A DNA stretch of 64,000 nt from Proteus mirabilis ATCC 29906 (GTDB lineage Bacteria; Pseudomonadota; Gammaproteobacteria; Enterobacterales; Enterobacteriaceae). Under the pieces are notes generated by a model that searched no databases, had not been told where the DNA came from, and worked only from the letters and a program-made list of their open reading frames with translations. The translations under genes and the position numbers were made by a program. The stretch covers positions 80,283 to 144,282 of the forward strand of contig NZ_GG668581.1 of assembly GCF_000160755.1 (NCBI RefSeq), given 5' to 3'. Below are positions 58,603 through 64,000 of the stretch, one piece after another. Position 1 is the stretch's first letter. Every line of letters begins with the position of its first letter.

Positions 58603-59610
58603 ATGAAAACATTAGGCGAATTTATCGTCGAGAAACAACAAGATTTTCCCCATGCAACTGGCGAATTAACGGCATTACTGTCAGCCATTAAGCTTGGGGC
58701 TAAAATTATTCACCGTGATATTAATAAAGCTGGGTTAGTCGATATTCTTGGCACTAACGGTGTTTCTAATGTTCAAGGTGAAGCCCAGATGAAACTGGAT
58801 CTTTACGCGAATGAGAAACTAAAAGCAGCACTTAAAGCTCGTGGTGAAGTTGCGGGGATCGGTTCGGAAGAAGAAGACGATATCGTTATCTTTGAAGGTG
58901 ATCGTGCGGAAAATGCCAAGTATGTGGTATTAATGGATCCATTGGATGGTTCTTCTAATATCGATGTAAACGTTTCCGTTGGTACTATTTTCTCTATTTA
59001 CCACCGTATTACGCCTATTGGCCAACCAGTGACACTAGATGATTTCCTGCAACCCGGTAATCGCCAAGTTGCTGCGGGTTATGTCGTTTATGGCTCATCT
59101 ACTATGTTGGTTTACACTACCGGTTGTGGTGTACATGCCTTTACTTACGATCCTTCTTTAGGGGTTTTCTGTTTATCTCACGAAAGTGTTCATTTTCCGC
59201 CTACCGGAAATATGTATTCAATCAATGAAGGTAACTACATTAAATTCCCATTAGGGGTAAAAAAATACATCAAGTATTGCCAAGAGCAGGATGCAACGAC
59301 TAACCGTCCTTATACAACTCGCTATATTGGCTCTTTGGTTGCGGATTTCCATCGTAACTTGCTCAAAGGGGGGATTTATATTTACCCAAGTACGGCAAGT
59401 CATCCAAATGGTAAATTACGCTTACTTTATGAATGCAATCCAATGGCATTCCTCGCGGAACAAGCGGGTGGTAAAGCCAGTAATGGTAAAGATCGTATTT
59501 TAGATATCAAACCAACAGAGTTGCACCAACGCATGCCATTCTTTGTGGGTACTAAAGCGATGGTCGAACAAGCAGAAGCATTTATGGCTCAATATCCAGA
59601 CGAAGAATAA
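58603..59610 (+). CDS. fbp: Fructose-1,6-bisphosphatase class 1
   Basis: A 335-residue gluconeogenic enzyme hydrolysing fructose-1,6-bisphosphate. Metal-site motifs are GSEEEDDIV (near 87-95) and the [12 protein letters not shown] stretch (near 112-123); [14 protein letters not shown] is near the C-terminus. ATG 58603 matches the family start ([12 protein letters not shown]). The ORF can be extended to 58426, but that stretch overlaps the mpl start and lacks homology. Confidence 0.96.
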
Positions 59611-59635
59611 ATTTTCTTTTTGTCAGGATATAGTT

Positions 59636-59667
59636 AAACCGGGCTTAATTAACGCGTCCGGTTTTTT
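59636..59667 (+). terminator. Terminator of fbp
   Basis: AAACCGG (59636-59642) pairs with CCGGTTT (59658-59664), followed by Ts. Confidence 0.75.
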
Positions 59668-59809
59668 CATCTCCCAAAATAGCTAATTCGTGTATTTGTT
59701 GCTTATTTTTACCTCAAAAGGCAACCTGTACGGCAAAAAACGGGTATTGTTAAAAACTTTTCGCTATACTACGAGCCACGTCAAATTAATTTTTCATAGG
59801 AAATTTTTT

Positions 59810-60337
59810 ATGAGCCTGAATCATGTTCCTGCTGGTAAAGAACTACCAGAAGATATCTATGTTGTTATTGAAATTCCAGCCAATGCTGATCCAATCAAAT
59901 ACGAAGTTGATAAAGAAAGTGGTGCACTGTTCGTTGACCGTTTTATGTCAACAGCGATGTTCTACCCATGCAACTACGGTTACATCAACAACACATTATC
60001 TTTAGATGGTGATCCAGTAGACGTTCTGGTTCCAACTCCATACCCATTGCAACCAGGTTCAGTCATTCGTTGCCGTCCTGTTGGCGTACTGAAAATGACT
60101 GATGAATCAGGTGAAGATGCAAAACTGGTTGCAGTACCACACACCAAACTAAGTAAAGAATACGATCACATTAAAGATGTGAACGATCTACCTGAATTAT
60201 TAAAAGCTCAAATCAAACACTTCTTCGAACATTACAAAGATTTAGAATCTGGTAAATGGGTAAAAGTTGATGGTTGGGAAGGCGTAGAAGCGGCTAAAGC
60301 TGAAATTCTGTCTTCTTTTGAACGCGCAAAAAAATAA
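59810..60337 (+). CDS. ppa: Inorganic pyrophosphatase
   Basis: A 175-residue hexameric family I pyrophosphatase that hydrolyses PPi to drive biosynthesis. Motifs include the metal-binding [14 protein letters not shown] (near 65-78) and [12 protein letters not shown] 59810 has AGGA upstream and matches E. coli ([15 protein letters not shown]). A TATACT -10-like hexamer lies at about 59765-59770, but no matching -35 is clear. The in-frame extension to 59690 is rejected. Confidence 0.97.
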
Positions 60338-60389
60338 TTCTGTGTCATTAGAATTAGCGTTGCTAAGTAATCCATTGGTTGCTTAGCCA

Positions 60390-60420
60390 AAATAAGCCCA
60401 CTTCAAATGTGGGCTTATTT
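60390..60420. terminator. Bidirectional terminator, ppa and MFS gene
   Basis: A 12-bp stem AAATAAGCCCAC with GTGGGCTTATTT and a 7-nt loop, with A/T tails, lies between converging genes. Confidence 0.9.
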
Positions 60421-60425
60421 TATGA

Positions 60426-61607
60426 TTATCTCTTTTTATGGTTTAACCGCATAATAAGCATTACGCCACTCACCAAGGTGATCGCCATAGCGATTATCAT
60501 CAATATATATACTGTCGAAATATTCCCTGTAGAGAAAAAGAGCAATCCCCCAACAATGGGCAAAATCAGTTGATTAAACAAAATAATCAGTGAGGAAATG
60601 CTAGCTAATTGTGTCACAGGAATAATTTCTATTCTTAACATCCGTAAAATATTCCCTGAAAAAACCTTACCAATAATGGATAGGGCATAAAAGAGAATAA
60701 AAGCCGTGATATCATGTTGAAAAATAACCAATAGAAAAGAACTTATTGTGATGATACAAATTGATAGAGACACTAATAATTTTCGATTTAAATAATGGGT
60801 TAGATAACCATATAAATAAGTTCCTATCACGCCACAGATCCCCGCAGAAATATCAATAAAGCCATAATATTTAATGGGTAAATTCATCGATTGGTCGATC
60901 AACGCCGCCCCACTCGACTCAATTAATCCATCAAACATATTATTGCCGATAGCAATTAAAATAGAAAAAACCAAAATAGGAGACGTAAAAATCACCACTA
61001 TCCTTTTCGTCACCTGTAATGTCTCTGTTAGGCTATGTAACTGAGTGGCAGATTGGCGCTGTTTTGGTACTAGGTAAAAGAACAAAAAGAACACGGCGTT
61101 AATGAAATAAAATAGACAGGGAATAATCAGTAAATAATGGTAACCATAATCAATAAATAACATACCGATTAATGGGCCAATGATCATGCCCAAAAAATCC
61201 ATTCGAGACATTATATTAATATGATGTTCTTTATGGCGACTCATCAAGGCAATAATTTTTTCATATGAAATCAGTGTCTGTGAATTACCAATAGAAATTA
61301 AGCTACCCACTAATCCAAAACTAATTGCAATAACTAAATCAGAGGAAAAATCTACTATTAATAAAAATAAACAACCGATAATTTTACAGCTATCGGAAAT
61401 AACAGAAACAGGACGGACACCTAGACCATCAATATATTGACCAATAAGCGGTATTAAAAAAATACGTGGTAACCACCATAAAGCGTATGTCAATCCCGCA
61501 TATTCAATGCTTGTTGTTAATTGATAAACAATAACAGGTGTCAAAAAAACCATTAGACCATCTGCACTTAATACCAAAAAAAGCATATAGAAAAAGACAA
61601 TACGCAT
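60426..61607 (-). CDS. MFS exporter-like protein of unknown operon
   Basis: A 393-residue protein with about 12 hydrophobic helices and a short central cytoplasmic loop with basic residues (PKQRQSATQLHS, about 182-195). QYIDGLGVRPV in the loop after helix 2 resembles the degenerate MFS motif of EntS-type exporters. Very rich in Ile/Leu and poor in GC. Eight bp separate it from the upstream double-cupin gene, so it is the last gene of that operon. The substrate is unknown; export of a small molecule or modified peptide is an inference. Confidence 0.8.
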   Translation of the reverse strand: MRIVFFYMLFLVLSADGLMVFLTPVIVYQLTTSIEYAGLTYALWWLPRIFLIPLIGQYIDGLGVRPVSVISDSCKIIGCLFLLIVDFSSDLVIAISFGLVGSLISIGNSQTLISYEKIIALMSRHKEHHINIMSRMDFLGMIIGPLIGMLFIDYGYHYLLIIPCLFYFINAVFFLFFYLVPKQRQSATQLHSLTETLQVTKRIVVIFTSPILVFSILIAIGNNMFDGLIESSGAALIDQSMNLPIKYYGFIDISAGICGVIGTYLYGYLTHYLNRKLLVSLSICIITISSFLLVIFQHDITAFILFYALSIIGKVFSGNILRMLRIEIIPVTQLASISSLIILFNQLILPIVGGLLFFSTGNISTVYILMIIAMAITLVSGVMLIMRLNHKKR

Positions 61608-61615
61608 AATAGAGG

Positions 61616-62908
61616 TTACACCTTTTCTTTAATTAATACTTTAATAGGCTGATTATTTTCATCATAAACAATAATTGATTTTGGGGTATGATGGGTGGGC
61701 TTATGTTTCATTAACGCTTGTTGTTTAGAAACAAGAAATTGATAATAGGTTAAATCTGCTGCTATTTTATTAACACGATAAGCTTGATAATTTTTATTAG
61801 CGATTTTCCAATCAATCACGTCATGACCCGGAATATATTCTTTTTCTTCGTCCAAATAGATAACAGGTCGATTCACAGTAATGATATTCGCCATATTAAA
61901 TAAGGCATGGGCAACACCACAGGGGATCACTAATTCAATATTGGGTGCCGGATCAAAAACCATTTCATCTTCATAAAATAGCGTAGGCGAATCTTCACGC
62001 ATATCCACCAGCTTAATAGTGATTTTACCCGAGGTATTTCCTAAAAAAGTTAAATGATCTTCTTGCCCTAAATGTAATCCATAAGAGTCGAAATCATAAG
62101 CCTCCTGACCATGTTCGACTAGATACATAGGGGATTGTCGCGTTAATGGGACAATGCCACTCTCTTTGCCCGTATGCAGGGTCGCCATTTCACGAAATTC
62201 AACACCTAAAATAGTGGATGTAGGTAATGACTGTTTTTGAACATCGGCTATTTTCTCTCGCAACCTTACATTAATTTCATCGCCATTATCTAAGCGAATT
62301 TTACGAGTTTCAGAGTGTAAAAATCGATGTTGGCTTAACCACTGCTGTTGTATCTCAGCAACTCGATAGTAGACCAGCGCCGAAGCTTCTTCTGTCATCG
62401 GCTCATAGCCTTCAATCTCATTAATATCGATATCTTCCGGCAGATTTATCACATCATTATTAGGTGACCAATTTAATGTTTCATTTGCTAATTGCTCGAT
62501 AGTAGGTAAAAAAAGAGAGTAGCTATTTAAGGTAAAAACATTTTCTAGATGGGAAAAAGTATGAGCAACTCCTGGGGGAATAATAAGTGTTCTTGCGGAT
62601 GATGGGGTTATCTCCAAACTTAATTCTGATTTAAATGTCGGTGAGTTTTTACGACAATCAATAAATTTAGCCAGTATCTTTTGTTTTTTATCACCTAAAA
62701 AGGTGAGTGTATCTTGCTGGCCAAGATGAATGCCATACTGCCCATATTTAAATTCGCTTTTACCGTGATAAACAATATTAATAGGATAGGTTGTTGCGAA
62801 AGGAATAACATAAGACTGATGTTTTCCATTATTCACTCGCCAGCGTTTAATCCAATGTAATCCGACAATATTAATATCTTTATTAAGTTCATTAATATCC
62901 TTATTCAC
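61616..62908 (-). CDS. Tandem RmlC-like double-cupin protein
   Basis: A 430-residue protein made of two diverged copies of a roughly 210-residue unit (about 1-222 and 223-430). Each unit has a dTDP-4-dehydrorhamnose 3,5-epimerase-like cupin: YG(I/L)HLGQ.D.LTFLG, D.R..SPT, I(P)PxGVAH followed by strands. Each also has a trailing helix and beta segment (YYRVAEIQQQ.../ YYQFLVSKQQ...). RmlC epimerises NDP-sugars, but no sugar-nucleotide genes are nearby and both catalytic sets look altered. Ribosome-binding site GGAG precedes the ATG. Function unknown. Confidence 0.75.
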   Translation of the reverse strand: MNKDINELNKDINIVGLHWIKRWRVNNGKHQSYVIPFATTYPINIVYHGKSEFKYGQYGIHLGQQDTLTFLGDKKQKILAKFIDCRKNSPTFKSELSLEITPSSARTLIIPPGVAHTFSHLENVFTLNSYSLFLPTIEQLANETLNWSPNNDVINLPEDIDINEIEGYEPMTEEASALVYYRVAEIQQQWLSQHRFLHSETRKIRLDNGDEINVRLREKIADVQKQSLPTSTILGVEFREMATLHTGKESGIVPLTRQSPMYLVEHGQEAYDFDSYGLHLGQEDHLTFLGNTSGKITIKLVDMREDSPTLFYEDEMVFDPAPNIELVIPCGVAHALFNMANIITVNRPVIYLDEEKEYIPGHDVIDWKIANKNYQAYRVNKIAADLTYYQFLVSKQQALMKHKPTHHTPKSIIVYDENNQPIKVLIKEKV

Positions 62909-62926
62909 TATTGTCTCCTTTTATTT

Positions 62927-62949
62927 AAAAAGCAGCCTTACGGCTGCTT
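62927..62949 (-). terminator. Attenuator-like hairpin after the 87-residue gene
   Basis: AAGCAGCC-GTAA-GGCTGCTT (8-bp stem, GNRA-type loop), followed by Ts on the minus strand, begins 5 nt after the stop codon. It lies just before the ribosome-binding site of the double-cupin gene, so only part of transcription would continue. Confidence 0.8.
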
Positions 62950-62954
62950 ATTGA

Positions 62955-63218
62955 TTAAAGACTGACGACTTCGATATCATAACCAAGTGACTTCGCACTT
63001 TTTAGTAACGCATCTAAGCTAGTGGTGTTTAATTTTAAATACTTATCATCAGCAGGTGCATTTTTAATACCTGCAAGATAAGCTAATTTATCTAATGCTT
63101 CTGTTGCAACAGTTTTAGTTTGTAGCATCATATCCGTAAAACGATGATTGACTATATTATGTTTTACATCTTTTGGTGGATTATTATAAAGTTGAGTAAT
63201 ATCGTTTAATTTGTCCAT
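62955..63218 (-). CDS. Small protein of unknown function, first gene of operon
   Basis: An 87-residue soluble protein without signal peptide or cysteine. AAGG lies upstream of the ATG, and a near-consensus promoter is at 63281-63309. The C-terminal half (ALDKLAYLAGI, a 15-residue spacer, SLDALLKSAKSLGYDIEV) has the spacing of the end of small XRE/HigA-type HTH proteins, though the recognition-helix segment is atypical. Alternatively it could be a precursor peptide acted on by the cupin protein and exported by the MFS protein. The hairpin directly after it would make it the most abundant product. I do not recognise the family. Confidence 0.65.
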   Translation of the reverse strand: MDKLNDITQLYNNPPKDVKHNIVNHRFTDMMLQTKTVATEALDKLAYLAGIKNAPADDKYLKLNTTSLDALLKSAKSLGYDIEVVSL

Positions 63219-63280
63219 AAATTACCTTATTTCGCTATTTAATAATAAGTCGTTATCTCTTTCCTTCTTAAGCAAAACTG

Positions 63281-63309
63281 TTTTAACACTGAAGTTATTT
63301 TTCTGTCAA
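63281..63309 (-). promoter_or_regulatory. Promoter of the 87-aa/cupin/MFS operon
   Basis: On the minus strand a consensus -35 TTGACA (63304-63309) is followed by a 17-bp spacer and TTAAAA (63281-63286). The predicted start gives a leader of about 55 nt before ATG 63218. Confidence 0.65.
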
Positions 63310-63410
63310 TCAGCTCTACCATTAATTATTTTCATATCAATTTAGATAAAAAACGAAGTAATAATTATTTATTTAAATTTTAAAATATAAATACTACTTT
63401 TAGTAAAAAT

Positions 63411-63440
63411 AAAAAAGCTCGATATATATCGAGCTTTTTT
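63411..63440. terminator. Terminator after tamB-ytfP
   Basis: A perfect 30-bp palindrome starting AAAAAAGCTCGATAT and ending in TTTTTT lies 31 bp after the ytfP stop. Flanking 63219-63410 holds only the operon promoter above. Confidence 0.92.
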
Positions 63441-63471
63441 AATCATTATTGAGTCAGCTTTCGTAAGCCTA

Positions 63472-63819
63472 TTACTCTTCTTCGTGGCGTTTTAGCCAAT
63501 CTCCACTTTTGATTTCTCGCAACCCATCAACTGGCTTTTGATAAAGATAGATCCAAGCACTACCATAAGGTGTTGATATCAACTGGCGCTTGTAATCTTG
63601 ATCATTTTTTTTCAGTTCATCAAGCTCCGTCAAAATGGAAGGCGTGATCCGATAAACTTCACATTCTATTTCACCATCACCTTCAACCACAGCAGGATAA
63701 AACCCTAAATCATAGAGTTTATACCCCGCTAATTTATACTCACCTAATAGCTGTGCGTAGGTCATCCAGTGATGGTTACCCTGATTTCGCCGTAAACTTC
63801 CATAAACAATAATTCGCAT
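63472..63819 (-). CDS. ytfP: Gamma-glutamylcyclotransferase family protein YtfP
   Basis: A 115-residue protein with the family start VYGSLRRNQGNHHWM, a Gly-rich loop and the likely catalytic Glu in ITELDELKK-like LTELDELKK (near 66-74). E. coli YtfP (113 aa) lies directly after tamB, as here (5-bp gap). Enzymatic activity in this subfamily is not established. Confidence 0.9.
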   Translation of the reverse strand: MRIIVYGSLRRNQGNHHWMTYAQLLGEYKLAGYKLYDLGFYPAVVEGDGEIECEVYRITPSILTELDELKKNDQDYKRQLISTPYGSAWIYLYQKPVDGLREIKSGDWLKRHEEE

Positions 63820-63824
63820 ATAAA

Positions 63825-64000
63825 TTAAAACTCAAATTGATAAAGCAGATCTATTGCCTGATTCATACCAGACACTGCTTGTAAATACAACCTGGGCATC
63901 AAGCGATAACGTAATGTTAACGTCGCTAGCGAATCAAATATACCCATCCCATACTTCACTTGTAAATCATCGGTTATCTTACCACTGACGACAACTTGTG
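63825..64000 (-). CDS. tamB: Translocation and assembly module subunit TamB (3-prime end only)
   Basis: The last 58 codons of a gene running off the window edge. The product ends [20 protein letters not shown] and then [20 protein letters not shown], the conserved TamB/YtfN C-terminus. TamB is an inner-membrane-anchored, beta-taco protein spanning the periplasm to outer-membrane TamA. Gene order tamB-ytfP agrees with E. coli. Confidence 0.9.

Follow-up and report, generated by a model that had tools for sequence, protein, structure and literature searches.

Which kind of system is encoded by the three genes between ytfP and ppa in Proteus mirabilis ATCC 29906? We analysed a stretch of 64,000 nucleotides of this genome (assembly GCF_000160755.1, contig NZ_GG668581.1, positions 80,283 to 144,282 of the forward strand; hereafter the window, with positions counted from its first letter), and both its sequence and the list of its open reading frames (ORFs) bear out a first-pass annotation that had placed three minus-strand genes at this junction. 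The names ytfP and ppa are those of that annotation; a PF06094 match is consistent with the former. The cassette comprises, all on the minus strand, a gene for an 87-residue protein (62955..63218), one for a tandem RmlC-like cupin of 430 residues (61616..62908), with a GTG start and AAGGAG upstream, and one for a 393-residue exporter of the major facilitator superfamily (MFS; 60426..61607), the gaps being 46 nt between the small gene and the cupin gene and 8 nt between the cupin gene and the MFS gene. We tentatively favour, with somewhat less than even confidence, the view that this is a self-contained cassette resembling those for ribosomally synthesized and post-translationally modified peptides (RiPPs), in which the 87-residue protein is the dedicated substrate of the cupin and the MFS protein exports the resulting product, either entire or as a fragment.

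The linkage of the genes extends well beyond Proteus. A cupin-profile scan of GTDB representatives yielded 30 loci (numbered with L below), of which 27 have 35-91% identity and three are remote, and small genes were recognised with a model of 26 close relatives, all of the named ones from Enterobacterales, at a match threshold of E < 1e-3. By this measure a same-strand small gene lies upstream of the cupin gene in 24 of the 27 loci and in 13 of the 16 outside Enterobacterales (Pseudomonas, 2; Actinomycetota, 9; Pedobacter, 2), at a distance of 43-206 nt, with the exception of L041 (575 nt). Among the three loci without a model match, L027 begins at a contig edge, while L039 and L044 carry in the same place a short ORF that has a GIK or NIK motif and matches weakly (E 0.77 and 3.7). 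Profiles of the enterobacterial small proteins and of those from other phyla match each other at 96.8% (E 3e-10). The first-pass annotation had made its idea of a precursor depend on linkage in other genomes, and the pair is indeed linked in Enterobacterales, Pseudomonas, Actinomycetota and Bacteroidota. An MFS gene lies 3' of the pair in all 14 gammaproteobacterial loci (in P. penneri, L018, it is split into two ORFs) and likewise in each of the nine actinobacterial loci, in L041 past an opposite-strand tetratricopeptide repeat (TPR) gene, and clustering of the ORFs within 10 kb, in which neighbours were not annotated individually, revealed no further family common to most loci. Compared with L018 only, the nonsynonymous and synonymous divergences (dN and dS) point to purifying selection on both the small gene (dN 0.068, dS 0.495) and the cupin gene (0.044 and 0.421); the MFS value against L019 was set aside, as it looks like the product of a mis-registered alignment.

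A conservation profile was derived from 23 of the 26 small proteins, three fragments or extended copies having been dropped beforehand. Mean conservation is 0.55 over residues 1-26, reaches its highest value, 0.87, over residues 45-70 and is 0.75 over residues 71-87; L48, I51, K52 and G79 are near-invariant across phyla, and the window protein, which carries the conserved LAGIK...GYDIEVV, is without cysteine. The signature that the first-pass annotation had looked for in a precursor, a conserved N-terminus followed by a variable C-terminus, is therefore reversed, the N-terminus being the part that varies. As the centre and end of the small protein are conserved, its product would not be a diversified bacteriocin but a single conserved compound. 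Pyrroloquinoline quinone (PQQ) and mycofactocin are peptide-derived products of this kind.

Also conserved is a stem-loop between the small gene and the cupin gene (62930..62949, minus strand), with a stem of 8 bp, a loop of 4 nt and T's thereafter (AAGCAGCC-GTAA-GGCTGCTT then TTT, read from 62949 to 62930), which may act as a partial terminator or as an mRNA-protecting hairpin. It starts 5 nt after the stop codon of the small gene, just where the first-pass annotation had put an attenuator-like hairpin behind a first gene of 87 codons. We folded the first 60 nt past the small-gene stop in 27 sequences (the window and 26 loci) and found z < -2 in 21 of them; in the window z is -3.6, and 11% of random window 60-mers fold as well. 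Across 12 Enterobacterales sequences, pairing holds in all 96 cells of the eight-pair stem and 9 double changes are seen, a result equalled by none of 500 shuffles; in half of these sequences at least five T's directly follow the GC stem. A hairpin thus follows the small gene in most loci and shows compensatory changes in Enterobacterales. Most simply, it would terminate part of the transcripts, or protect their 3' ends, after the first gene, and more small protein than enzyme is therefore predicted.

The second gene is what it had been called, a double RmlC-like cupin: it scores 55.7 bits against PF00908 (dTDP_sugar_isom; cut-off 27), and the tandem fold is predicted with high confidence. Its nearest named relatives are found in two P. 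mirabilis records (99.1% identity) and in P. penneri (91%), and NCBI labels it a 'dTDP-4-dehydrorhamnose 3,5-epimerase family protein'. In all, 178 relatives were found and 120 of them listed, of which 58 entered structure alignment A4 together with the window protein and three L045/L046 proteins. Catalysis by RmlC relies on an Arg-His-Tyr-Asp set. Of this set His alone (H61, H279) aligns between the window protein and ten single-domain RmlC proteins, and each half of the cupin has its own invariant or near-invariant His-x4-Asp...His set. A first pass of Foldseek against the PDB returned long, poor superpositions, mainly on other two-domain cupins (TM 0.2-0.3); a second structure comparison, which is the one used here, returned RmlC/QdtA folds and covers mainly residues 223-388, apart from the 2ixl row, which spans residues 1-172.

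The third protein matches PF07690 at 74.9 bits (cut-off 33.4), which settles its earlier identification as an MFS exporter. Its nearest family is TIGR00900, the drug:H+ antiporter group (2.5e-12, below cut-off), and all pumps tested, namely those of the window, of two other gammaproteobacterial loci and of two actinobacterial loci, match this model, in each case below cut-off. The actinobacterial pumps also match the EntS, Tap, Tet(V) and Mef models below the curated cut-offs, and they fall on branches different from those of the gammaproteobacterial pumps.

Expression of the cassette appears to start from a promoter of its own (63280..63309, minus strand), as had been claimed, in part correctly. 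The TTGACA at 63309-63304 stands, whereas the proposed -10 element, TTAAAA at a spacing of 17 bp, agrees with TATAAT at only three of six bases and is not near-consensus; the promoter is better read as TTGACA, 18 nt and TAAAAC (63285-63280) with an extended TGT. The element is supported by its conservation among Enterobacterales: the -35 TTGACA is exact in 9 of 12 sequences and has one mismatch in two (L025, L030), and TGnTA follows in 11 of 12. The form TTGACA-N18, then TA with TGn just before it, recurs in Proteus, Chimaeribacter, Dickeya, Serratia, Providencia, Pantoea, Winslowiella and Erwinia, Proteus myxofaciens (L020) being the sole exception among the 12. A plain consensus scan revealed no excess of promoters here (15 against 16.9 expected) and does not list the cassette promoter, a site that its rules exclude. 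Just 3' of the -10, at the likely transcript start, 9 of 11 readable Enterobacterales promoters (L019, L021-L026, L030, L031) have a foldable palindrome of the type GAAAnnT...AnnTTTC, which is lacking in the window and L018 and folds at z < -2 in only 2 of the 11; it could be a 5' stem-loop of the mRNA or an operator.

We lean towards the substrate reading, on which the cupin uses up the small protein, because of the conserved gene order, the hairpin and the pump. A small gene beside a dedicated enzyme, as in RiPP systems, is found in 24 of the 27 loci, and we infer that the cupin modifies the small protein. The hairpin would end or protect most transcripts after the first gene and so supply more small protein than enzyme, as expected for a substrate; both halves of the cupin would act on the conserved LAGIK region or on the conserved C-terminus; a cellular protease may release the product, and the pump would expel it. 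Of what the first-pass annotation had proposed here, the linkage and the hairpin hold up, while the signature of conserved N-terminus and variable C-terminus does not. This counts against a consumed substrate, as do several other observations. Modification, binding and the relative expression of small protein and cupin are predicted properties. No variable core, GG-type or other leader-core cleavage site or protease gene was seen, there is one small gene per locus, and no RiPP-enzyme or leader-recognition model appears among the matches of the three proteins in Pfam and NCBIfam, in keeping with the earlier remark that no known RiPP enzyme family is present. Six of the 27 sequences (L028 and L029, both Pseudomonas, and L040, L041, L043 and L044) have no significant hairpin, and against random 60-mers from the same locus only 12 of the 27 rank in the top 5%, since stable folds also arise from hairpins elsewhere and from GC-rich DNA; the window hairpin is missing from the terminator-scan list, because its outer pairs use up the T's of the run. 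No MFS gene adjoins the pair in Pedobacter (two loci), Chitinophagales (one) and Methylocystis (one), the contigs of the last two being short, and in Actinomycetota the distances between cupins are uncorrelated with those between pumps (r 0.016; 777 of 2000 permutations as high). Distances between small proteins do correlate with those between cupins (r 0.755 for 27 sequences; 0 of 2000 permutations), which speaks for the cassette, though in a Mantel test that ignores host relatedness. Lastly, a conserved helical protein could be a partner subunit just as readily as a substrate.

On that alternative, which we regard as a real if doubtful possibility, the small protein would work as a subunit, a chaperone or an inhibitor of its partner, the cupin, while the cupin acts on a sugar- or drug-like small molecule and the pump exports that molecule. 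This view stays close because the small protein is conserved and lacks a cleavable core, and it agrees with the single copy per locus, with the correlated distances, with a drug-type pump and with a fold whose known ligands are sugars. It does not sit well with the conserved intergenic hairpin, which predicts unequal amounts and would be unusual for a stoichiometric subunit, or with the outcome of the ORF clustering. A degenerate XRE-type regulator at the head of an efflux or detoxification operon is, in our judgement, improbable. The idea draws on the NCBI name of the small protein, 'XRE family transcriptional regulator', on the start-site palindromes and on the fact that LAGIK...SLDxLLKSAKxxGYxxEV can be laid on HTH_37 (E 0.11) and 2a6c (E 0.43), a faint pattern that makes distant descent from a helix-turn-helix (HTH) protein possible. 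However, searches of Pfam and NCBIfam, of family members and of profiles against profiles gave no significant HTH match, so that the degenerate HTH regulator suggested at first finds little backing and the precursor idea is not removed by a match to a standard DNA-binding family. HTH_37 reaches E <= 1 in only 2 of 68 members (best 0.028), profiles compared with 11 HTH_37-like proteins gave 6% (E 0.006) for one subset and 0.1% for the other, with reversed controls at 0.1-0.3%, and the predicted structure is poor (pLDDT 64) and has no confident HTH. The most conserved stretch, KNAPADDKY, would sit at the recognition helix, and a local regulator would hardly be expected to stay paired with a cupin in several phyla. 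It is more improbable still, to the point where we give it very little credence, that the cupin is an ordinary nucleotide-sugar 3,5-epimerase accompanied by a hitchhiking ORF and a transporter. The PF00908 score and the RmlC/QdtA folds speak for it, as do six RmlD_sub_bind hits over cut-off in the genome, but these cover mainly the N-terminal part of the model, like other short-chain dehydrogenases. Three RmlC residues, the Arg in front of the catalytic His, the Tyr and the Asp, are not preserved, the TIGR01221 score is 37.8 against a cut-off of 155.75, and the cupin, which the small gene accompanies in 24 of 27 loci, is the only PF00908 protein of a genome that has no canonical RmlC beside it.

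Several known systems are comparable in part. Like RmlC-type dTDP-4-dehydrorhamnose 3,5-epimerases (PF00908), the cupin has the cupin fold, with a GLH His and an IPxGxAHxF motif in both halves; it differs from them in being tandem, in its added helix-strand segments, in lacking the Arg/Tyr/Asp set and in having a small-protein partner. Microcin C and pantocin A are products of RiPP cassettes with an MFS exporter. The pbs cluster too has an MFS gene, together with a cupin-like hydroxylase, PbsQ, that acts on the precursor peptide (PMC12257519), and with all three the present cassette shares a small gene in first place, an enzyme gene in second and an MFS exporter. PbsQ is related to a JmjC protein and is one of several enzymes, whereas here an RmlC-like tandem cupin stands alone and there is no variable core. 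The Nif11 and Franean1_4349 leader families resemble the small protein in the end of a helical segment (SSQEEFMKFAEENGYSVSI in L039), with weak E-values; they differ in that scores stay below the curated cut-offs and no core peptide follows the leader-like part here. The Frankia_peptide model matches 5 of 68 members (best 1.2e-3, all below cut-off), the L039 protein matches Nif11 at E 1.2e-3, also below cut-off, and the best score against the Nif11 leader model TIGR03798 among the 10 members scanned is 19.0 (cut-off 32.3). A Nif11 domain/cupin cluster of marine Synechococcus with a putative epimerase is mentioned in one report (PMC10783134). The likeness to EntS-, Mef- and Tap-like pumps consists in the TIGR00900 matches, all below the curated cut-offs; it puts the MFS protein in the broader group to which EntS and the macrolide pumps belong, a point in favour of the cassette reading.

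The cassette is rare, being present in 3 of 198 genomes of the family, its own included, and in its own genome only among 369 genomes of the class and 398 of the phylum; an order-level search gave 16 of 197, which, its own genome excepted, are short matches to single-domain RmlC-like frames. In 20 Proteus genomes (L060-L079) the ytfP-ppa site, window 60338-63471, holds the cassette in nine, its own included; in six the two genes are adjacent, and in five, which look alike (L064, L067, L069, L071 and L076), other DNA follows ytfP and no ppa occurs within the stretch fetched. The junction is thus an accessory slot in Proteus. Some copies are decaying: a large internal deletion has removed most of the cupin in one Proteus genome (L074, 2200-2880), the small-protein match of L065 (2163-2390) covers residues 1-76 only, and the MFS reading frame of P. 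penneri is split (L018, 11302-12479). The cupin also occurs on plasmids of Chimaeribacter and Pantoea; among the records of the plasmid collection, NZ_OL790811 and NZ_OL790812 (P. mirabilis, 4.1 Mb each) are probably chromosomes. Patchiness, decay and plasmid copies are the pattern of a dispensable, transferred trait. The operon DNA was not found in E. coli genomes in a near-mode search, nor the cupin in phage records.

Within the window, a bidirectional terminator-like hairpin from the terminator scan (63410..63441), 3' of ytfP, separates the operon from that gene, and a second hairpin, AAATAAGCCCAC-N7-GTGGGCTTATTT (60390..60420), absent from the scan list, lies between the MFS gene and ppa. 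No Rfam family reaches its gathering score in 59500-64000, and defence-system models match neither the three window proteins nor the one relative compared. A TPR gene (ORFs of about 160-300 residues) lies near the cassette, not always adjacent, in seven of the nine actinobacterial loci (L034, L036, L037, L038, L040, L041, L043); a TPR neighbour gave a single, weak match to a defence-system model (0.024).

The three remote loci, L045-L047, repeat the layout, with a remote tandem cupin, a protein of 90-92 residues and an MFS gene, the small gene following the cupin. In Xenorhabdus mauleonii (L045, 6977-11140) two such cupins flank the 92-residue gene and the MFS gene; a single cupin, a 90-residue gene and an MFS gene occur in P. 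fluorescens (L046) and in P. neuropathica (L047). We did not count them as members, because their small protein cannot be aligned with the main family (hhalign 0.1-0.8%, reversed control 0.5%). Sequences of this type were included in alignments A3 and A5, the former being the query of a wider small-protein search that found 118 proteins, among them ones from Burkholderia, Janthinobacterium, Nocardia, Bradyrhizobium and Rhizobium. Outside Enterobacterales, those named by their source are called hypothetical or uncharacterised. Many of these small proteins lie on contigs equal in length to that of a listed cupin relative, which suggests, without proof, linkage to a cupin in those genomes as well.

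If the small protein is indeed consumed by the cupin, the cassette could represent a new class of ribosomal natural product, with a tandem RmlC-like cupin as sole modifier of a conserved small protein and EntS-like export, an extension that we consider conceivable and on balance unlikely. The cupin might epimerise or oxidise the conserved LAGIK or GYxxE segment, and one conserved product would be made in Proteobacteria, Actinobacteria and Bacteroidetes; the open-licence PMC literature yielded no published description of such a cassette. A sugar-epimerase fold, one so far tied to nucleotide-sugar chemistry, would then have been recruited to the chemistry of polypeptides, in an overlooked route to a peptide-derived compound and in a cassette compact enough for transfer and testing as one piece, and the annotations 'XRE' and 'dTDP-4-dehydrorhamnose 3,5-epimerase family' would be corrected to the substrate and the enzyme of one system. 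Even with the small protein as a subunit, the two proteins would constitute an uncharacterised enzyme pair conserved across phyla.

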